Part shown: positions 52,768-62,153 of the stretch, piece by piece
Numbering within the stretch: the first letter of the stretch is position 1
How the letters are laid out: the number at the start of each line of letters is the position of its first letter
Source of the DNA: Salegentibacter sediminis
GTDB taxonomy: Bacteria > Bacteroidota > Bacteroidia > Flavobacteriales > Flavobacteriaceae
Direction of reading: 5' to 3'
Assembly (NCBI RefSeq): GCF_002078605.1
Contig: NZ_MSJR01000002.1
Coordinates: 124,001 to 188,000, forward strand
DNA: 64,000 nucleotides
Made by a program: the position numbers and the translations under genes
Notes under the pieces: generated by a model
Database searches by the model: none
What the model was told of the DNA's origin: nothing
What the model saw: the letters and a program-made list of their open reading frames with translations, nothing else

Positions 52768-53763
52768 TTGGAAACGATCACAGAAAAAGAATTGAAAACC
52801 ATTCAATTGTTGAACAAACAACAAAGCAAGCTTGAAATTCTTAATTATGGAGCGGCCATTCTTAGTTTTATAATTAAAGATAAAAAGGGAAAACCCACCA
52901 ATGTGATAGTTTCTCCTAAAGCTACTGAATTTGTTAAGCCGGTATATAAAAACCATAATAAATGTTTTGGGGCCTCTGTAGGGCGTTACGCCGGCCGTAT
53001 CTCCGGCGGAAAATTTAAACTGGATGACCAAAGCTTTGAGCTTCAGCAGAAAAATGGAGTTCACCTTCACGGCGGAGAATATGGGTTTCAGTATAAAATA
53101 TGGAAAATAGAAGAACAGACTTCCGGAGAAAATCCATCGGTTACACTTTCATATTTCAGTGAAGATGGGGAAGAGGGCTACCCCGGAAATTTAAAGGCAT
53201 CAGTGAAATACTGCCTCACCGAAGAAAATGAAATTTTAATCGAATACACTGCTACCAGCGATAAGAAAACCGTCGTTAACCTAACTAATCATGCTTATTT
53301 TAACCTGAATGGAGAAGGAAGTGTGAGTGATCATTTTCTTCAAATCTCAGCAAATAAAATTCTTCAGGTGAATGAGCAAATGCTGCCAACTGGGGATTTG
53401 GTGAAACTTAAAAATAAACCAAAGGATTTTAGCAAGAGCAAGCTTATCGGAAATCGCCCGTTAGACGATAGTTTTGTTCTCAATAATGAGAAGAATGAAA
53501 ATGCAGCGGTGCTGTTTGCCCCATTAACCGGAATAAAGATGGAAGTCAAAACCAATCAGCCCGCGCTGGTGGCTTATGCTCCCGAGGAACTGCCGGATGA
53601 TTTGGAGTATAAAACCCTGATTTCTAAAGAGTATCCTTCTATTTGCCTGGAATCCCAAAATTTTCCTGATTCTCCTAATTTCAGGAATTTTCCATCGAGC
53701 GTTCTTATACCCGGGGAGAGGTATTCTAACCAGATTTCTCTAAATTTTAAGGTTGTTTCCTAA
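52768..53763 (+). CDS. galM: aldose 1-epimerase (galactose mutarotase)
   Basis: A 331-residue protein beginning at TTG 52768, 13 bases after the DUF885 gene. It has the mutarotase signatures LHGGEYGFQYKIW, VNLTNHAYFNLNG (catalytic histidine) and a terminal LESQNFPDSPNFRNFP. It turns beta-galactose to alpha-galactose, the form used by GalK. It opens the galactose locus; the symporter follows 104 bases later under what looks like its own promoter. Confidence 0.92.
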   Translation: METITEKELKTIQLLNKQQSKLEILNYGAAILSFIIKDKKGKPTNVIVSPKATEFVKPVYKNHNKCFGASVGRYAGRISGGKFKLDDQSFELQQKNGVHLHGGEYGFQYKIWKIEEQTSGENPSVTLSYFSEDGEEGYPGNLKASVKYCLTEENEILIEYTATSDKKTVVNLTNHAYFNLNGEGSVSDHFLQISANKILQVNEQMLPTGDLVKLKNKPKDFSKSKLIGNRPLDDSFVLNNEKNENAAVLFAPLTGIKMEVKTNQPALVAYAPEELPDDLEYKTLISKEYPSICLESQNFPDSPNFRNFPSSVLIPGERYSNQISLNFKVVS

Positions 53764-53777
53764 TATGATTAATAAGA

Positions 53778-53793
53778 GTAATTATTACATTTA
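53778..53793 (+). promoter_or_regulatory. candidate operator/promoter before sugar symporter
   Basis: GTAATTATTAC (53778-53788) is a perfect palindrome and resembles the GTAAAATTTAC core of the two sites near galK and 58.6 kb. As at 58643, a TACATTTA box (53786-53793, one mismatch to TAnnTTTG) overlaps its right half. It is weaker than the other two sites. Confidence 0.35.
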
Positions 53794-53866: not shown

Positions 53867-55543
53867 ATGGAGTTTGGATTTTTAGATCAACTGGTTTTTG
53901 TTGGATATGCCTTAAGTATCGTTGCGATAGGTTTGTGGGTTTCCCGGGGAAAGGGAAGTACTTCTGAAGATTATTTCCTGGCAGGTAAATCGCTTCCCTG
54001 GTGGGCTATTGGAGCTTCACTAATCGCTGCCAATATCTCGGCAGAGCAATTCATAGGAATGTCGGGATCTGGTTTTGCCATAGGTCTTGCCATCGCCTCC
54101 TACGAATGGATGGCAGCCTTAACGCTTCTCATTGTAGGTAAGTTTTTCCTGCCTATTTTCATCAAGAAAGGATTGTATACTATTCCTGAATTTGTGGAGG
54201 TACGGTATGGGACAAGCCTCAAAACTATCCTTGCCGTTTTCTGGATCGCTCTTTTCATTTTTGTAAACCTCACCTCGGTATTATATCTGGGAGCTACCGC
54301 CCTGGATACGATTATTGGTGATGGCGATGGTTCCATATTCCTTTATTCAATCTTTGGACTTGCTCTTTTCGCCGCAGCCTACTCGCTCTATGGAGGGCTT
54401 TCGGCGGTAGCCTGGACCGATGTTGTCCAGGTTATATTACTTATTATAGGTGGGTTGATCATGACTTATATTGCTCTTGATAATGTTACTGATGGAGGCG
54501 GAGTTATAAACGGAATGCTTTCTATTTATGAGCAGGTACCAGACAAGTTTTCTATGATTCTTGAAAGAGGCGAGATTATCACGCCAAATGGGAAAGATGC
54601 CTGGTGGGACCTTCCTGGGCTGGCTGTACTTATTGGTGGTATGTGGGTAGCTAACCTTTATTACTGGGGCTTTAACCAGTATATAATTCAAAGAACCCTG
54701 GCAGCAAAAAGCTTAAGGGAGTCTCAAAAAGGAATTGTTTTAGCTGCTTTTCTAAAGCTTGTTATACCCCTAATAGTGGTAATTCCCGGTATAATCGCCT
54801 TTGTGATGAATACAGGACCAAACGGGGAGATTTCTTCTACATTTACCGATATTTCTTTCTTTTCGGGTACGGGAAATGTAATAAACGATAATGCTGCTCC
54901 CTGGTTGATAAAGGAATTTATTCCCGCAGGACTTAAAGGCCTTGTATTAGCAGCACTGGCGGCTGCTATTGTATCGTCTGTTGCTTCTATGCTCAACTCT
55001 ACCGCTACTATATTTACCATGGATATTTATAAGCCCTATTTCCAAAAAGGAAAATCTGAAAAAGGCCTGGTAAAAGTTGGTCGAATCTCTGCTTCTGTTG
55101 CCCTTATTATCGCGGTAATTCTGGCTCCCCAATTAAAAAATCTTGGGCAGGTGTTCCAATACATTCAGGAATATACAGGAGTGGTGAGCCCTGGCATCCT
55201 GGCGGTATTTATGCTGGGACTTTTTTGGAGAAAAACTACCAATAAGGCTGCCATTTATGGAGTGCTGGCATCTATCCCGATCGCATTTTACTTTAAAATA
55301 GGACCGAACGTCTGGATTGATAGTCCCTTCTTCCTTAATCTTCCATTTATGCATCAGATGATGGCGACCTGGCTTCTTACGATGGCGCTTATGCTTATTA
55401 TTAGTTTGGTGGAAGGCAAGGGTAAAAACCACGAGAAGTCTATTCCTTTAAGTAAGGAATTATTTAAAACAGGTCGTGCGTTCAATATTGGAAGTTTCGC
55501 CGTGTTGCTTATCCTGGTTATGCTTTACGCCTTATTCTGGTAA
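53867..55543 (+). CDS. SSS-family sodium/sugar symporter
   Basis: A 558-residue inner-membrane protein with 13-14 hydrophobic segments. The N-terminal SEDYFLAGKSLPWWAIGASLIAANISAEQFIGMSG and the Na+-site segment VASMLNSTATIFTMDIYK are typical of sodium/glucose-galactose transporters (SGLT, vSGLT). Between galM and galT it most likely imports galactose. The final helices after 480 are less conserved. Confidence 0.9.
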   Translation: MEFGFLDQLVFVGYALSIVAIGLWVSRGKGSTSEDYFLAGKSLPWWAIGASLIAANISAEQFIGMSGSGFAIGLAIASYEWMAALTLLIVGKFFLPIFIKKGLYTIPEFVEVRYGTSLKTILAVFWIALFIFVNLTSVLYLGATALDTIIGDGDGSIFLYSIFGLALFAAAYSLYGGLSAVAWTDVVQVILLIIGGLIMTYIALDNVTDGGGVINGMLSIYEQVPDKFSMILERGEIITPNGKDAWWDLPGLAVLIGGMWVANLYYWGFNQYIIQRTLAAKSLRESQKGIVLAAFLKLVIPLIVVIPGIIAFVMNTGPNGEISSTFTDISFFSGTGNVINDNAAPWLIKEFIPAGLKGLVLAALAAAIVSSVASMLNSTATIFTMDIYKPYFQKGKSEKGLVKVGRISASVALIIAVILAPQLKNLGQVFQYIQEYTGVVSPGILAVFMLGLFWRKTTNKAAIYGVLASIPIAFYFKIGPNVWIDSPFFLNLPFMHQMMATWLLTMALMLIISLVEGKGKNHEKSIPLSKELFKTGRAFNIGSFAVLLILVMLYALFW

Positions 55544-55557
55544 GAAATAAATTTAAC

Positions 55558-56598
55558 TTACCGGATGGAGTAATGTTCATCTGGTAAGTCCCTTAATCTT
55601 TGCGCTGCCTGCTCTGCGGTAATATCACGTTGTGGCCCGGCAAACATTTCGTAGCCTACCATGAACTTCTTAACTGTGGCCGAGCGTAATAGCGGGGGGT
55701 AAAAACTCATATGGAAATGCCATTCGGGGTGTTCCTGGCCATCGGTGGGCGCCTGGTGTATCCCCGAAGAGTAGGGAAAAGAGGTTTCAAAGAGGTTGTC
55801 ATATTTAATAGTGAGCTTCTTAATGATTTTTGCAAAATCTACTTCCTCTTCTTTGTTTAACTGCCCGATATGTTGATAATGATTCTTCGGAATTATCATG
55901 GCCTCAAAGGGCCATACCGCCCAGTACGGAACCAGTGCAACAAAATGTTTTGTTTCTTCAAGGATGCGTTCCTGTAGTTTTAGCTCCAGGTTGAGGTAAT
56001 CTTTTAGCAGGCTACGTTTGTTTTCTTCCCAGTGTTTTTTAAGATGTTTGGATTTTTTCTGAACTTCGGTTGGAATTGAATGCTGAGACCAAATCTGCCC
56101 ATGCGGATGTGGGTTGCTGCACCCCATAATATCACCTTTATTCTCAAAGATCTGCACATAATTAATATTCTCCTCTGCGCCCAGTTCAGCAAATTCTTTT
56201 TTCCAGAGTTTTACCACTTCTGTAATATCTTTAATTTCCATTATGGGTAAGGTAAGAGAATGATCTGGTGAGAAACATACCACTTTACAGATTCCGCTTT
56301 CAGGTTCGGCCCGCAACAGATCCTGCTCTAAGGCCTCGGAAGGATTTTGTGGCAATAGCGCGGGGAAATCATTTTCAAAAGAAAAAGGTTTTTTGTAATC
56401 AGGATTGGTTTTACCACTATTTCGTGTATTTCCCGGACACAGGTAGCAGGAAGGATCGTAAGTTTCTCTTTTTTCCGAGGTATGTTTCTCTGTTTTTCCC
56501 TGCCAGGGCCGTTTTGTTCGGTGTGGCGAAACCAGAATCCATTCCCCTGTTAATATATTATACCTTCTGTGTGGAGTGGTATTGATATTTGTGCTCAT
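55558..56598 (-). CDS. galT: galactose-1-phosphate uridylyltransferase
   Basis: A 346-residue protein of normal GalT length. The nucleophile histidine lies in CSNPHPHGQIWSQ (HPHGQ), the N-terminal zinc-region CYLCPGNTR is present, and a second histidine set appears in HQAPTDGQEHPEWHFH. It moves UMP from UDP-glucose to galactose-1-phosphate. It starts 4 bases after the galK stop, so the two form an operon transcribed leftward. Confidence 0.95.
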   Translation of the reverse strand: MSTNINTTPHRRYNILTGEWILVSPHRTKRPWQGKTEKHTSEKRETYDPSCYLCPGNTRNSGKTNPDYKKPFSFENDFPALLPQNPSEALEQDLLRAEPESGICKVVCFSPDHSLTLPIMEIKDITEVVKLWKKEFAELGAEENINYVQIFENKGDIMGCSNPHPHGQIWSQHSIPTEVQKKSKHLKKHWEENKRSLLKDYLNLELKLQERILEETKHFVALVPYWAVWPFEAMIIPKNHYQHIGQLNKEEEVDFAKIIKKLTIKYDNLFETSFPYSSGIHQAPTDGQEHPEWHFHMSFYPPLLRSATVKKFMVGYEMFAGPQRDITAEQAAQRLRDLPDEHYSIR

Positions 56599-56602
56599 GA
56601 TC

Positions 56603-57745
56603 TTAGTTTCTGGTTATAATGGTACCGGCATCGGCTTCGACAATAATTGGTTCGGGATTTATCCCGAATTTCCCGAAATAGGCTTTGTCTGCTTCCTCGA
56701 TAAATTTATCAATTTTATCGGTCTCAATAAGATTGATAGTACAACCTCCAAATCCTCCGCCCATCATCCGGGCACCATAAATAAATTCCTTATCCCGGGA
56801 AAAATCGACGAGAAAATCCAACTCGGCACAGCTCACTTCGTATTTATGTTGCAGCTCGTCGTGGGAAGCATACATCAGGTTCCCAAATTCTGTGACATTA
56901 CCATTTTTAATTGCTTCGGCAGCTTTTTGAACTCTTTTGTTTTCCTCGATCACATAGCTGCATCGCTCATAGATTTTGCCGGGTAATTTATCTTTAGAAT
57001 TTTCAAGCATTTGCTCATCAATATCGCGCAGACTTTTTACTTCAGGATGAGTTTTAGCAATAATTCTTACACCTTCTTCGCATTCCTGCCTGCGGGAATT
57101 GTATTTGCTATCGGCCAGACTGTGGGAAACCCTGGTGTTCAGCAATAATATTTTACAATTTCTGAAATCGGCCGGAATATATTCAGCATCGAGGCTCTCA
57201 CAATCAAGAAGAATTAAATGATCTTTTCTGCTCATCACCGAGGCATATTGATCCATTATTCCGCAGTTGGAACCAACAAAATTATGTTCGGCCCGTTGAG
57301 CGAGTTTAATGATGTCAATTTTGCTTAGCTTAAGTTCAAACAATTCGTTTAGCCCACTGGCCAGGCCACATTCCAGGGCTGCTGATGAGCTTATTCCTGC
57401 CCCAATGGGCAGTTCACTTTTTAGAACACAATCGAAACCGCTGAGCTGTTTCCCTAGTTGCTGTATCTCATTTACAACCCCCAGAATATAGTTTTCCCAG
57501 GGGTTTTTACTTTTTGTGATCTTTTGCAAATTTAACTGAAAAGAGGAATTATAGGTTTCGCTATAAATTCGGCAAAGCGATGCTGAATTGTTTTTACCCA
57601 GCTTAAAATAGATCTTCTTGTCAATTGCAGTGGGCATCACAAAACCCTGGTTATAATCGGTATGTTCTCCAATGAGGTTTATGCGTCCGGGGGACTCAAT
57701 TTCCACCTGAACTTTAAAATCTTTAAAATTGCCGTCGCTATGCAA
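56603..57745 (-). CDS. galK: galactokinase
   Basis: About 380 residues from TTG 57745. An upstream in-frame ATG at 57799 is rejected as the start because a -7 box (TATCTTTG, 57776-57769) and an operator palindrome lie between; translation has to begin after them. Signatures: SPGRINLIGEHTDYN, the ATP loop PIGAGISSSAALECG and the C-terminal GARMMGGGFGGCT. It phosphorylates alpha-galactose. A GTG at 57706 is a second possible start. galE is not in the window. Confidence 0.93.
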   Translation of the reverse strand: MHSDGNFKDFKVQVEIESPGRINLIGEHTDYNQGFVMPTAIDKKIYFKLGKNNSASLCRIYSETYNSSFQLNLQKITKSKNPWENYILGVVNEIQQLGKQLSGFDCVLKSELPIGAGISSSAALECGLASGLNELFELKLSKIDIIKLAQRAEHNFVGSNCGIMDQYASVMSRKDHLILLDCESLDAEYIPADFRNCKILLLNTRVSHSLADSKYNSRRQECEEGVRIIAKTHPEVKSLRDIDEQMLENSKDKLPGKIYERCSYVIEENKRVQKAAEAIKNGNVTEFGNLMYASHDELQHKYEVSCAELDFLVDFSRDKEFIYGARMMGGGFGGCTINLIETDKIDKFIEEADKAYFGKFGINPEPIIVEADAGTIITRN

Positions 57746-57768
57746 AATCTGAAAATTTATATGAGTTT

Positions 57769-57796
57769 CAAAGATAATAAATGTAAAATTTACATT
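57769..57796 (-). promoter_or_regulatory. galK promoter with 17-base palindromic operator
   Basis: AATGTAAAATTTACATT (57780-57796) is a perfect inverted repeat of 8 bases around a central A. Directly after it on the minus strand is a perfect -7 box TATCTTTG (57776-57769), so the palindrome fills the spacer between -33 and -7. This is the usual place for a repressor site. The Nudix regulator gene starts 57 bases to the right. Confidence 0.65.
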
Positions 57797-57852
57797 CATT
57801 TAAATATCCATAAATTTTTCTTTTTACCTATCTTTAAGGAAAATTTAAATGG

Positions 57853-58557
57853 ATGCCCGAAACTACAGTAGACTTTTACAAGCCCAGTGATAAAATGTAC
57901 GTTGCCACAGATTGTTTGATCTTTGGTTTTGATGAGGGACAACTTAAATTGCTGGTTTTTAAACGGAGAGTCGAACCCAGGAAAGGAGAATGGTCTTTAA
58001 TAGGCAGTTTTGTGAATTTGGATGAAGATGTAGATGAGGCTGCTAAAAGAGTTCTGGCCGAAATCACCGGCCTGGAAAATGTTTTTATGGAGCAGCTAGG
58101 TGCGTATGGGGCGGCTGAACGGGATCCCGGATATAGGACTATTTCTATTGTGCAGTATGCCCTGATAAGGATAAATGATTATGACAAAAAGCTGGTTGAA
58201 TCTCATGGCGCTCATTGGTTCGATATAAATGAGGTGCCCGGACTTGTCCTGGATCATGATATGATGTTGGCCGATGGCCTTGAGAAATTACGAAGAAAAG
58301 CCCGGTATCAACCTATTGGATTTGAGCTTCTTCCCGAAAAATTTACCATTCCCCAGTTGCAAAAACTCTATGAAGTTATTTATCAGAAGGAACTGGATGG
58401 AAGAAACTTCAGAAAAAAACTTCTTTCTCTTAATGTGCTTATAAAACTTGATGAAAAAGACAAGTCTACCTCCCGCCGGGGAGCATTTCTGTATAAATTT
58501 GATCACAAAAACTATCAGAAACTATTGAAATCGGGTTACAACTTCGAAATCACCTGA
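57853..58557 (+). CDS. Nudix-fold transcriptional regulator (NrtR/AraR-like)
   Basis: A 234-residue protein. Residues about 1-150 have a Nudix fold (KMYVATDCLIFGF, RRVEPRKGEWSLIGSFVNLDEDVDEAA), but the Nudix box is degenerate: the catalytic REUXEEXG reads KRVLAEITG, so hydrolysis is unlikely. Residues 155-234 form a winged helix (FTIPQLQKLYEVIYQKELDGRNFRKKLL) as in NrtR and the Bacteroides AraR. Next to galK and a palindromic operator it is probably a repressor released by a galactose-type sugar or metabolite. A -7-like TATCTTTA lies at 57829-57836. Confidence 0.88.
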   Translation: MPETTVDFYKPSDKMYVATDCLIFGFDEGQLKLLVFKRRVEPRKGEWSLIGSFVNLDEDVDEAAKRVLAEITGLENVFMEQLGAYGAAERDPGYRTISIVQYALIRINDYDKKLVESHGAHWFDINEVPGLVLDHDMMLADGLEKLRRKARYQPIGFELLPEKFTIPQLQKLYEVIYQKELDGRNFRKKLLSLNVLIKLDEKDKSTSRRGAFLYKFDHKNYQKLLKSGYNFEIT

Positions 58558-58631
58558 TAGATACCGCTGAATGTTAAATCTAAAATTCTTGTTAAAAAAT
58601 TAAGGCTTAAATTTTTGTTTTTAATAATATA

Positions 58632-58650
58632 ATTGTAAAATTTACATTTA
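58632..58650 (+). promoter_or_regulatory. second operator palindrome before isomerase/glycosidase genes
   Basis: TGTAAAATTTACA (58634-58646) is identical to the core of the galK operator. A TACATTTA box (58643-58650; one mismatch to TAnnTTTG) overlaps its right half, 26 bases before the ATG at 58676. The same regulator would block this promoter. Confidence 0.6.
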
Positions 58651-58675: not shown

Positions 58676-59569
58676 ATGGGCAACAAGTATTCCAGGCGTG
58701 ATGCGCTTAAAACCATGGTATTGGGGTCGGGAGCTCTTAGTATTGGCGGAGTAGTTTCCTCTTTTGCAGCCATTAATTTTATCGATAAGCACCAGGCTGA
58801 TAAAAAGAATCTCAATATTAATCACTCTGTGTGTCGCTGGTGTTTCCAGGATATTCCCTTGAATAAATTCGCTCAGGAATGTGCAGCTTTAGGGATAAGC
58901 GCTATAGATCTTTTAAAACCTTCGGAATGGGATACCGTTGAAAAACACGGCCTGGTTTGCTCTATGGCGACCGATGATTTTGCTGATATAGAAAACGGAT
59001 TTAATGCTCCTGAAAATCACGAAACTTTGCAGAAAAATTATAAAGGACTCATTGAAAAAGCTTCAGAACATAATATAAAAAATGTTATAGTATTCTCCGG
59101 CAACCGCCGGGGGAGGGATGAGAAAACGGGGATAAGAAACTGCGTGGCCGGTCTAAAGCCCTTGCTGAAATATGCCGAAAGAAAAAATGTTAATCTGGTT
59201 ATGGAACTTCTTAACAGCAAGGTGGATCATGCCGATTATATGTGCGATAACACTGAATGGGGAGTAGCACTTGCCGATGAACTCAATGCCCCTAACTTTA
59301 AATTGCTCTATGACATTTACCATATGCAGGTTATGGAAGGCGATATAATCGCTACCATTAAAAAGCATCACAAACATATTGCCCATTACCACACTGCCGG
59401 TGTTCCCGGCCGGAATGAAATCAATGATAGCCAGGAACTAAATTATTCGGCAATTATGAACGCAATTGTGGAAACCGGGTTTGATGGTTATGTTGCCCAG
59501 GAATTTATTCCAACTTACGATAATAAAATGGTGGCTTTGAAAGAGGCTATTGAAATATGTGATGTATAA
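58676..59569 (+). CDS. hydroxypyruvate isomerase-like TIM-barrel protein with Tat-type signal
   Basis: A 297-residue protein. The N-terminus KYSRRDALKTMVLGSGALS is a twin-arginine signal, so it is likely exported. The rest is a xylose-isomerase-like TIM barrel of the hydroxypyruvate isomerase group: YDIYHMQVMEGDI and YHTAGVPGRNEI hold metal ligands, and GYVAQEFIPTYD is the C-terminal Glu strand. It may isomerise a sugar or uronate in the periplasm. It shares the operator site with galK and lies 13 bases before the glycosidase gene. Confidence 0.85.
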   Translation: MGNKYSRRDALKTMVLGSGALSIGGVVSSFAAINFIDKHQADKKNLNINHSVCRWCFQDIPLNKFAQECAALGISAIDLLKPSEWDTVEKHGLVCSMATDDFADIENGFNAPENHETLQKNYKGLIEKASEHNIKNVIVFSGNRRGRDEKTGIRNCVAGLKPLLKYAERKNVNLVMELLNSKVDHADYMCDNTEWGVALADELNAPNFKLLYDIYHMQVMEGDIIATIKKHHKHIAHYHTAGVPGRNEINDSQELNYSAIMNAIVETGFDGYVAQEFIPTYDNKMVALKEAIEICDV

Positions 59570-59582
59570 AACTTTTTAGAAA

Positions 59583-62153
59583 ATGGTTTTAAGACTACTT
59601 GTGATGTGCCTGGCCCTTTTTTTTTCGCAGGCTATCTTTTCTCAGGAAAAAGGAAATGTGTATGTAGATGATGAAGGCCTTATGAGATGGGAGCACAACA
59701 AGGAAGAAGTCAAAGGATTTGGGGTAAATTATTCGGTTCCTTTTGCCCACGCTTATCGCAGCGGCCAGAAATTGGATGTTGACCTAAAAGAAGCCATAGA
59801 TAAGGATGTATATCATTTTTCAAGGCTGGGTTTTGACCTTTACAGAATTCACGTTTGGGACACCGAAATTAGTGATGAAGAAGGAAATTTGCTGGAAAAC
59901 GAACATTTGGAAACCTTCGATTATCTCCTAAAACAATTAAAAAACAGGGGGATAAATTTTGTGATTACTCCCATTGCATATTGGGGCAACGGTTGGCCTG
60001 AACCCGATAAGGATACTCCCGGCTTCTCCCATAAATATGGAAAAGCAGAAAGCCTTACCGATTCCGGGGCTATAAAAGCACAGCAAAATTACCTGGCAGA
60101 GTTCTTAAACCACGTGAACCCATACACCGGTGTGGCCTATAAAAATGAACCGAATATTATCGCTTTTGAAATAAGTAATGAACCGCACCACAGGGGCAAA
60201 CCTGCAGAGGTGACAGAATTTATTCAGAAGATGGTTGATGCAATGCGCAGTTCGGGTACCGAAAAACCTGTTTTTTACAATGTTACTCATAGTATCAACC
60301 TGGCCGAAGCCTACTTTGATGCCGATATTCAAGGGGGAACTTTCCAATGGTATCCTACCGGGCTGGGTTTTCAGAAGGAACTGGAAGGCAATTTACTGCC
60401 AAATGTAAACGAGTATAAGATCCCATTTGATGAGGTAATCACCAAAAATAGGGCAGCTAAACTGGTTTATGAATTCGATGCTGCCGATGTGAATAAATCC
60501 TATATCTATCCTGCGATGGCCCGTAGTTTTAGAGAGGCCGGCATTCAAATCGGGACACATTTTGCTTATGAGCCTACTTACCTGGCCCACGGGAATACAG
60601 AGTACAACACCCATTATATGAACCTGGCGTATACGCCCCAAAAGGCCCTGGCCTTAATGATCGCCGGTGAGATATTCCATAGGGTTCCACTTAACAGTGA
60701 TTTCGGAACTTATCCCGATAATTTAAAATTCAAGGATTTTGAGGTTAGTTATGAAAAGGATCTGGCGGTTTTAAATTCAGAAGAGAAATTTATCTATTCC
60801 AACACAAACTCTCTACTGCCACGGTCTGTTAAAGAATTAAAACTGATTGCCGGCTACGGGAATTCAGAAGTGGTAAAATATGAAGGCCAGGGGGCTTATT
60901 TTCTCGATAAAATACAGGATGGCGTTTGGCGATTAGAGGTGATACCCGATGCGATTTTGGTAGATAATCCGTTTGGTACTAACAGCCTGGAGAAAACAGT
61001 GAGCGTTATCAATTGGAAAGAATGGCCAATGAGCCTGGATCTGCCAGATTTGTCTGATGAGTTTATTCTTGAAGCCATAAATCAAGGCAATGATTTTCAA
61101 ACTATAGCTTCTAAAAATACTTTCAATATAAAACCCGGGACCTATCTTCTTAAAAATTCAGATGTAGAATACGACAAAACTTCGGCAGATTTACAAAATT
61201 TCAGGCTGGAGGAATTCAGCGCACCAGAGTCTACGGTGGAAAGGACTTATGTAATTCATGAGCCGGTTGAGGTTATTTCTTCGGCTTCAGAATTAGTGAT
61301 TTCAGCAGAGATCGTTTCCAATGAAATGATCGAAAAGGTGGAAGCCTGGTTGCAAAACGGGAATACTTACGAAAGCATAGCCTTGGAAAATAAAAACGGC
61401 TACACTTATTCGGCTGAGGTTTCGGAAAAATTATTAACCCATGGGTTTTTACAGTATAGAATTATCGTTAAAACCGAATCGGGAGATTATACCTTCCCGG
61501 GAAATGTAACAGGCAACCCGGGGGAGTGGGATTTTCTTTCTTCTGAAGAATATAAAGTGAAAATTGTTCAAGAGGATACCCCACTTGTTCTTTTTAATGC
61601 AATAGAGGACGAAGATTATGTAGTAGGAGAGTGGTTGCCGACTCTAAATCTGGTGCCTACTCATAATGCAGGTGAAGCCGAATTTCAGGTGAATGTAGAG
61701 GAATTATACAGAAAAGATATTGAAAACCCAGAGGCTACTCCAATTTATGATTATTCCTTCAAATATAATTTCAATAGAAAAACCGAAGGAAGAAGAGCTG
61801 AATTTGCAGGGAAAAATAAATTAGTAGTTAAAGCCAGAGCTTTAAATCAAAAAAATTCAAAACTGCAGGTAGCTTTACTGATGAAAAATGGAGCTGCTTT
61901 TGGTACGATTCTCAGCCTGAGTCCGGAAACCAGAGAATATGAGATCCCCATTTCAGACTTAGAGCCGGTGAAAACGATTAGCCTCCCAAGACCTTATCCT
62001 TCATTTCTGCCTTATTATTTCGAACATAATAATTTGAAGACTTTTGATATTGAGGAGGTGGAGAGCCTTCAGTTTTCTATCGGGCCTGGCCTGAATGAAA
62101 AGGAAAAATTAGAGAAGCACGGTGTTGGAATTATAAGCGTATCGCTTAAATAG
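59583..62153 (+). CDS. secreted GH5/cellulase-superfamily glycoside hydrolase
   Basis: An 856-residue protein with a signal peptide (cleavage near IFSQ). The catalytic TIM barrel occupies about residues 25-400: the acid/base is E in AFEISNEPHH and the nucleophile probably E in KLVYEFDAADV, both in the places expected for clan GH-A. Residues 400-856 contain several beta-rich modules (about 430-520, 545-640, 690-856) that resemble carbohydrate-binding or Ig-like domains. Family GH5 or a near relative; the glycan is unknown, but the locus suggests a galactose-containing one. Confidence 0.8.
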   Translation: MVLRLLVMCLALFFSQAIFSQEKGNVYVDDEGLMRWEHNKEEVKGFGVNYSVPFAHAYRSGQKLDVDLKEAIDKDVYHFSRLGFDLYRIHVWDTEISDEEGNLLENEHLETFDYLLKQLKNRGINFVITPIAYWGNGWPEPDKDTPGFSHKYGKAESLTDSGAIKAQQNYLAEFLNHVNPYTGVAYKNEPNIIAFEISNEPHHRGKPAEVTEFIQKMVDAMRSSGTEKPVFYNVTHSINLAEAYFDADIQGGTFQWYPTGLGFQKELEGNLLPNVNEYKIPFDEVITKNRAAKLVYEFDAADVNKSYIYPAMARSFREAGIQIGTHFAYEPTYLAHGNTEYNTHYMNLAYTPQKALALMIAGEIFHRVPLNSDFGTYPDNLKFKDFEVSYEKDLAVLNSEEKFIYSNTNSLLPRSVKELKLIAGYGNSEVVKYEGQGAYFLDKIQDGVWRLEVIPDAILVDNPFGTNSLEKTVSVINWKEWPMSLDLPDLSDEFILEAINQGNDFQTIASKNTFNIKPGTYLLKNSDVEYDKTSADLQNFRLEEFSAPESTVERTYVIHEPVEVISSASELVISAEIVSNEMIEKVEAWLQNGNTYESIALENKNGYTYSAEVSEKLLTHGFLQYRIIVKTESGDYTFPGNVTGNPGEWDFLSSEEYKVKIVQEDTPLVLFNAIEDEDYVVGEWLPTLNLVPTHNAGEAEFQVNVEELYRKDIENPEATPIYDYSFKYNFNRKTEGRRAEFAGKNKLVVKARALNQKNSKLQVALLMKNGAAFGTILSLSPETREYEIPISDLEPVKTISLPRPYPSFLPYYFEHNNLKTFDIEEVESLQFSIGPGLNEKEKLEKHGVGIISVSLK

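Follow-up and report, generated by a model that had tools for sequence, protein, structure and literature searches.

A predicted galactose-specific paralogue of the arabinose repressor AraR at a galactose locus of Salegentibacter sediminis

Described Nudix-type regulators and the Salegentibacter locus

The arabinose regulator AraR of Bacteroides thetaiotaomicron (BT0354, here BtAraR; PDB 5BS6, 5DD4, 5DDG and 5DEQ) controls uptake, catabolic and extracellular genes, according to PMC4666351, on which we draw throughout. Arabinose acts on it in the 0.01-0.5 mM range. In the crystal with DNA the operator reads GTGT-N7-ACAC and Lys179 contacts its outer guanine, at position -7; the DNA contacts K179, R180, N181, K184, K204 and R205 are stated there to be absolutely conserved. 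Arg34, Arg86 and His131 hold the hydroxyls of the sugar, Tyr5, Phe36, Phe49 and Val92 pack on C4/C5 and Phe129 faces C2, F36 and F129 being hydrophobic positions that are Met/Ser in Prevotella. Tyr5 and Gly89 fill the region of the nucleotide cleft. The same source gives the consensus of the Nudix box as GX5EX7REUXEEXGU and an identity of only 33% between BtAraR and XylR (BT0791), a predicted NrtR-type xylose regulator described in PMC3878776. A comparison from outside sugar metabolism is NrtR from Shewanella oneidensis, the ADP-ribose-responsive repressor of NAD genes (PDB 3GZ5, 3GZ6 and 3GZ8), in which a Nudix-like domain is combined with a winged helix.

The window, by which we mean the whole 64,000-nucleotide stretch of Salegentibacter sediminis DNA analysed here, contains a regulator gene (57853-58557, plus strand) whose 234-residue product has NUDIX, NrtR_WHD and AraR_C matches above the Pfam cut-offs. 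Its best solved relative is BtAraR (5bs6, E 1e-79), with which it shares 118 of 217 residues (54%) in a gap-free alignment. A Foldseek search with its AlphaFold2 model (mean pLDDT 84.5) returned AraR as the top six PDB matches and NrtR next. As in the NrtR superfamily, the Nudix-like domain precedes a winged helix of the NrtR/AraR type and the Nudix box is degenerate; indeed it reads as broken, since in residues 52-74 (SFVNLDEDVDEAAKRVLAEITGL) the first Nudix-box glycine is replaced by serine and REUXEE by RVLAEI. The equivalog model for NrtR of NAD metabolism (NCBIfam NF050029) scores 140.9 bits, its cut-off being 400, and no NAD gene was found by Pfam and NCBIfam among the seven locus proteins scanned. 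Within the window's genome there is no second full-length relative; the other match, at 36%, covers the Nudix part only. It is a well-supported prediction from sequence that this protein is a galactose-specific paralogue of AraR that represses galTK together with an isomerase/glycosidase pair and, probably, a symporter of the vSGLT kind.

These genes surround the regulator. On the minus strand lie galK (galactokinase, 56603-57799; Pfam, NCBIfam) and galT (galactose-1-phosphate uridylyltransferase, 55558-56598; Pfam, and TIGR00209 above its cut-off). On the plus strand are a galM-like aldose 1-epimerase of the same pathway without an operator of its own (52768-53763; Pfam, NCBIfam) and a sodium/sugar symporter of the SSF family (53867-55543; Pfam), whose nearest solved relatives, 2xq2 and 3dh4 (E 2.4e-190), are labelled sodium/glucose cotransporter; we take both entries for vSGLT, the sodium/galactose symporter of Vibrio. 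Beyond the regulator, also on the plus strand, are a xylose-isomerase-like TIM-barrel protein (58676-59569; Pfam), with a leader that looks Tat-like by eye, and a GH5-like glycosidase of 856 residues (59583-62153; Pfam), with a probable secretion leader, also by eye. The solved relatives of the former are weak, namely an AP endonuclease family 2 protein and D-tagatose 3-epimerases; the latter matches GH5 mannanases, again weakly. The longest galK reading frame starts at 57799, within an operator described below, and 22 of 23 galK matches from outside the genus align only from residue 20-36 onwards, so the real start probably lies downstream of 57799. Automatic calls of the galK start are probably too long here because the longest frame begins inside the operator.

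Operators and their occurrence with the regulator

The initial annotation had reported a palindrome in the galK promoter spacer and related sequences before two other genes, and each was recovered: AATGTAAAATTTACATT, a perfect odd palindrome of 17 bases, at 57780-57796, its 13-base core TGTAAAATTTACA at 58634-58646 and a looser match, GTAATTATTAC, at 53778-53788. They form the centres of three putative operators. Operator 1 (TAAATGTAAAATTTACATTCA, 57778-57798) lies in the galK promoter, between galK and the regulator gene, and is backed by the palindrome, a genome search and relatives; operator 2 (TAATTGTAAAATTTACATTTA, 58630-58650) precedes the isomerase-like gene and is backed by the genome search and by conservation in the genus; operator 3 (TAAGAGTAATTATTACATTTA, 53773-53793), between galM and the symporter, is weaker, with two mismatches to the consensus. 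The promoter placement holds as well. A TAnnTTTG box (57769-57776, minus strand; plus-strand letters CAAAGATA, minus-strand reading TATCTTTG), presumably the Bacteroidota -7 element, begins 12 bases from the centre of operator 1. Palindrome length was rejected as evidence, since 17-base palindromes that are perfect and odd occur three times in the window.

The sequence TGTAAANTTTACA has exactly two exact copies in the genome of 3,264,253 bases, 852 bases apart and flanking the regulator gene, where a simple base-composition estimate expects 0.77 per genome. The operator consensus, TAAATGTA-N5-TACATTTA, that is ATGT-N7-ACAT, occurs with at most two mismatches at seven places in the genome, three of them in this locus (before galK, the isomerase and the symporter). 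The genes scanned at the other four are cytochrome c-like, HTH, HSP90 (with the site inside the gene) or unmatched in Pfam. With up to three mismatches there are 50 places against 66 for a reversed control. There is thus no enrichment, and the motif alone cannot call sites in one genome; the pattern being no commoner than its control, the third site is unprovable from a single genome. A scan of eight proteins, three of them without any Pfam match, found no Pfam-named sugar gene beside the four non-locus places or beside C16, a place of cognate form with three mismatches. A genome-wide regulon beyond the locus was rejected on this ground, and the regulator is treated as local.

Comparison among relatives required a division by sugar pocket. 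A galactose-pocket class of 40 regulators was defined by Val or Ile in place of Phe36 and Ser, Ala or Asp in place of Gly48, positions 129 and 179 playing no part, and was set beside 56 regulators with an AraR pocket. Half-site spacing was scored on intergenic sites reaching at least 16 of 18, with position -7 ignored. The galactose-pocket loci hold 40 such sites at N7 and 0-3 at each of eight other gaps, and their coding DNA, although almost seven times longer, holds 11 at N7; for the AraR-pocket loci the figures are 44 intergenic sites at N7 against 1 to 5 at other gaps. Beside the regulator itself, a site with at most three mismatches is found in 34 of the 40 galactose-pocket loci (28 with at most two); four shifted spacers each give such a site in 0-3 of 40. 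The initial annotation had named loci that keep the regulator and lose the palindrome as evidence that would speak against it. Next to the regulator the palindrome is kept by these 34 loci, and six (L085, L146, L147, L153, L154 and L163) have none with up to three mismatches within 300 bases.

Inside the genus, orthologues of at least 74% identity occur in 14 of 15 Salegentibacter genomes, the window's included, and are missing from one, G005. The genus was assigned from four named Salegentibacter loci whose proteins match those of genus genomes identically across the core compared. All 15 genomes have galK, in 16 copies. Although 11 of the 15 galK copies in regulator-bearing genomes do not adjoin the regulator, every one of the 15 has a site with at most three mismatches upstream, and the TAnnTTTG box stands 12 bases from the operator centre at 15 of the 16 copies across the 15 genomes. 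The galK of G005 (L123) keeps the promoter box, and its best site has four mismatches with one ACA half broken; this operator looks decayed. Downstream of the regulator a site with 1-3 mismatches is present in all 14 regulator-bearing genomes, and the gene behind it varies, being isomerase-like in most genus loci, GH2 in L070, L078 and L143 and a sulfatase in L139. Preservation of the site while the gene behind it changes suggests that the regulator takes control of those galactan-processing genes that happen to be present in a species.

Ten of the 14 genus genomes with the regulator have galK at another place, and in these the regulator has a flanking site on its downstream side only; autoregulation is thus not conserved and was rejected as a general feature. 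Ten genus loci lack galTK (L071-L077, L079, L081 and L082). Eight of them have a 529-residue symporter before the regulator that is 33-35% identical to the window's 558-residue protein, and L073 and L077 keep the 558-residue type.

A further sample comprised 33 genomes outside the genus, 22 of them with galK (23 copies), and for each copy the closest match to the consensus in the 300 bases before galK was taken. In the seven that have a galactose-pocket regulator these best sites have 0, 0, 0, 1, 1, 2 and 4 mismatches. The 15 without the regulator (16 galK copies) range from 3 to 6, where absence was assigned by a search for relatives plus residue typing, the typing covering all but the weak paralogues (36-38% identical) in G020 and G032 and a single one in G053. 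Overall, a galK site with at most two mismatches accompanies 20 of 22 copies with the regulator and 0 of 17 without it (Fisher one-sided p = 3e-9, uncorrected for kinship). Outside the genus the counts are 6 of 7 against 0 of 16 (one-sided 7e-5, or 8e-4 without G016 and G038, the two genomes from whose sites the consensus was partly written). The TAnnTTTG box recurs at the same 12-base offset in four of the seven regulator-bearing genomes outside the genus.

The association extends to unlinked galK genes: where galK does not adjoin the regulator in regulator-bearing genomes, 12 of 13 copies have a site with at most three mismatches, the exception being in G017. Put as the loss of the palindrome despite a retained regulator, the question has a clear answer at galK in 20 of 21 regulator-bearing galK genomes, which keep it, and the opposite one in G017, a genome that is 80% complete. 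The search of relatives that the initial annotation had called for thus finds regulator and operator together, also at unlinked galK genes, and its central proposal, a Nudix-type repressor of galactose genes acting through a shared operator, is supported by this co-occurrence, by the strict spacing and by the agreement of pocket class with gene neighbourhood described below. On such comparative grounds the link between regulator and operator is highly probable, and we are just as confident that galTK would be under its control.

For the symporter the picture is more graded. The window's site has two mismatches, and sites with at most three occur in 5 of 10 loci with this symporter type. Those of L070, L078, L080 and L136, with 2-3 mismatches, lie 88-162 bases before the symporter start; two loci, L069 and L143, have four mismatches, and in the remaining three (L073 and L077 of the genus, and L142) nothing better than five precedes a symporter of the same type. 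A Markov null over 350 bases reached two or fewer mismatches in 6 of 2000 draws and three or fewer in 108 of 2000. The symporter site is probably real, and control of the symporter by the regulator appears moderately likely. For galM the best upstream site in the window has six mismatches, and among 17 loci with galM none has better than five; if galM is controlled, it is not through a site of its own. The joint control of galM and symporter, galTK and extracellular enzymes that had been envisaged at the outset accordingly keeps galTK and the isomerase/glycosidase genes, retains the symporter on a weaker site seen in half of the loci, and loses a separate operator for galM.

Sugar pocket, operator base -7 and the identity of the effector

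All 40 galactose-pocket rows keep Arg34, Arg86, His131, Tyr5 and Phe49. Position 36 is Val or Ile in all 40 by definition of the class, and Ser occupies position 48 in 37 and Leu position 129 in 38; the AraR pair of F36 and F129 is not found in these rows, and the AraR set of R34, R86 and H131 is. D-galactose is L-arabinose with a CH2OH group added at C5, so a smaller residue 36 is what free galactose would need. Gene neighbourhoods divide in the same way. The galactose-pocket loci with a classified context are 23 gal and 0 ara, none of the 23 adjoining araA, araB or araD; 17 of the 40 have no clear context, holding no galK, galT or ara gene, and seven of the 40 lack any galactose or isomerase reference gene. 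The arabinose-pocket rows give 43 ara contexts (seven of these also with galK or galT) against two gal, with 11 unclear.

In a quick tree, which carried a long-branch warning and was built without columns 36, 48, 129 and 179, all 40 galactose-pocket rows fall within one clade of 47 (SH-aLRT 97). Neither the tree nor the counts include 24 loci with more distant paralogues (L062-L068 and L092-L108) or four duplicate proteins, and 31 further loci were inspected without entering the tree or the half-site counts. Tree-aware pairing of pocket class with context finds one independent change, too few for significance. The other seven rows of the clade are L151 and six from Chitinophaga (L155, L158, L160, L162, L164 and L169). 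The latter have an intermediate pocket, with V36, G48, F129 and K179, and the three best sites listed per locus include no strong operator close to the gene; they were excluded from the galactose class and possibly represent a third specificity. A histidine-kinase-like gene lies downstream in L158, the one locus annotated. L151, from Saprospirales, has F36, L129 and S179 and is followed directly by a gene of GH53, a family we take to be endo-galactanases. In four loci from Parabacteroides and Tannerellaceae (L167, L168, L176 and L208) galM, a further gene without an assignment and galK immediately precede a regulator with an AraR pocket. Two of the four loci place ara genes next to the regulator as well, and control by arabinose and by galactose may be merged in this group.

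At the DNA-binding side, position 179 is Gly in the window's regulator, whose V40 and G183 correspond to positions 36 and 179, and Lys179 is absent from 39 of the 40 galactose-pocket rows. R180 and N181 are kept in all 40, and K184, K204 and R205 vary among AraR-pocket rows too. The window's regulator thus lacks the full set of AraR contacts that includes K179, and its operator differs from GTGT-N7-ACAC in having A at -7, at identical spacing. Where Lys179 is absent, G occupies -7 in 6 of 80 half-sites, and where it is present in 60 of 100, counted from sites scoring at least 16, which were available in 30 of 42 and 41 of 71 rows, respectively. L150 (Saprospiraceae), with a galactose pocket and an adjoining galT, has kept Lys179, and its operator, TAAGTGTAAAAAAAACACTTA, has G on both sides. 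Some AraR proteins with Lys179 (L189, L235 and L240) also use symmetric ATGT sites, so the base at -7 is a preference, and tree-aware pairing finds two to three independent changes of residue 179, too few for significance, which would take at least six concordant pairs. A strict one-to-one code between residue and base was rejected on these two grounds, and the link is best regarded as a well-placed hint.

We propose that a galactose-sensing repressor arose within the AraR branch of the NrtR family, an explanation that we consider likely when taken as a whole. The sugar-free dimer would bind TAAATGTA-N5-TACATTTA through its winged-helix domains, and at the main site, which lies just upstream of the galK promoter -7 element, its geometry suggests that transcription would be blocked. 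Free D-galactose would bind the dead Nudix pocket, which retains its three hydrogen-bonding residues and has Val or Ile in place of the Phe36 that lies beside C4/C5. By homology with AraR and arabinose, binding would release the DNA, so that galTK and the isomerase/glycosidase genes, and probably also the symporter, would be switched on. In cells that hold both, the absence of Lys179, together with operators that mostly have A or T at -7, may separate the regulator from AraR. We lean towards a history in which an arabinose repressor was duplicated and one copy turned to galactose by opening its pocket at the C5 side and dropping Lys179 and its guanine together, which would have insulated the paralogues.

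The high identity to BtAraR and the retention of every residue that hydrogen-bonds arabinose would equally be expected if the locus simply held an AraR responding to L-arabinose, the galactose genes being mere neighbours or co-induced through shared plant or algal polymers; 9 of the 56 AraR-pocket rows do hold galK or galT (in Parabacteroides and some other Bacteroidales). However, six genus genomes possess an AraR with F36 and K179 besides the galactose-type regulator, these AraR genes adjoin GH127, FGGY-kinase or SusC-like genes, and ara neighbourhoods are absent from the 23 classified galactose-pocket rows, which makes an arabinose response improbable. The window's own genome has a single such regulator. 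It is very improbable that the palindrome belongs to another regulator, such as a Crp-like global sugar regulator, with the Nudix protein an unrelated neighbour: the site tracks the presence of the regulator at unlinked galK genes, has the spacing of AraR and, unlike the site of a global regulator, shows no genome-wide enrichment, although Bacteroides sugar promoters also contain a Crp-like palindrome (TATGTTnTAnAACATA; PMC3878776).

A galactose-responsive repressor might nevertheless sense something other than the free sugar, such as galactose-1-phosphate, UDP-galactose, or a galactan-derived oligosaccharide or rare sugar that is a substrate of the isomerase or glycosidase. The position of Phe36 faces phosphate in S. 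oneidensis NrtR (PMC4666351), which means that a phosphate group might fit beside a smaller side chain, and an isomerase-like protein, whose substrate could be such a rare sugar, is encoded downstream. Against this, Arg34, Arg86 and His131 are kept throughout the class, and Tyr5 and Gly89, also kept in 40 of 40 rows, argue against UDP-galactose. We therefore view these other effectors as unlikely, and the pocket makes free D-galactose, rather than galactose-1-phosphate or UDP-galactose, a reasonably likely effector.

Spread, significance and relation to known regulators

Galactose is a main sugar of red-algal galactans. No description of galactose sensing by marine flavobacteria was found among the papers listed by full-text searches of open PMC, nor was one of a Nudix-type galactose regulator recognised there, subscription literature and RegPrecise lying outside the scope of the search; the initial annotation, too, knew of no described Nudix repressor for galactose. 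The single mention of Nudix in the parts of PMC5327383 used here is a row of an expression table. A sample of 395 genomes from the order gave seven matches at E 1e-78, six with the galactose pocket, and one of 395 genomes from the phylum, queried with the L150 protein, gave 28 matches at E 1e-70, two with that pocket. The type is thus uncommon at the thresholds used, and with 6 of 395 sampled order genomes the reach of the finding is narrow.

If the proposal is correct, a local regulator of Leloir genes can be named for loci of Salegentibacter, Salinimicrobium, Christiangramia, Aquimarina and Flavicella, and residues 36, 129 and 179 would separate arabinose from galactose sensors among genes called Nudix hydrolases. 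It would be the first galactose sensor on the Nudix fold in open PMC full-text papers and would offer a natural coupled switch of ligand and operator that can be read from sequence, in a small, testable system in which both specificities changed together. Cultured relatives such as Christiangramia echinicola and Salegentibacter salarius possess the gene.

The regulator represents a new specificity inside a known family and is no new kind of system. With NrtR of S. oneidensis it shares the Nudix-like and winged-helix architecture at 28% identity; unlike that protein, and like AraR, it has Tyr5 and Gly89. XylR belongs to the same family and also serves a local Bacteroidota sugar regulon. A paralogue group in the genus (L057-L061), about 40% identical to the window's regulator and with His at position 34, adjoins genes for an FGGY kinase, for a sugar transporter and for an isomerase with a weak match, and is presumably the xylose regulator. 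The closest likeness remains that to AraR, with which the window's regulator has in common the fold, the decayed Nudix box, R34, R86 and H131 in the pocket, R180 and N181 on the DNA side, and operator half-sites in the register of the crystal with an identical 15-base spacing. It differs from AraR in Val for Phe36, Ser for Gly48, Leu for Phe129 and Gly for Lys179, in an operator of ATGT/ACAT rather than GTGT/ACAC, and in its neighbours, which are galK, galT and a vSGLT-like symporter in place of any ara genes.
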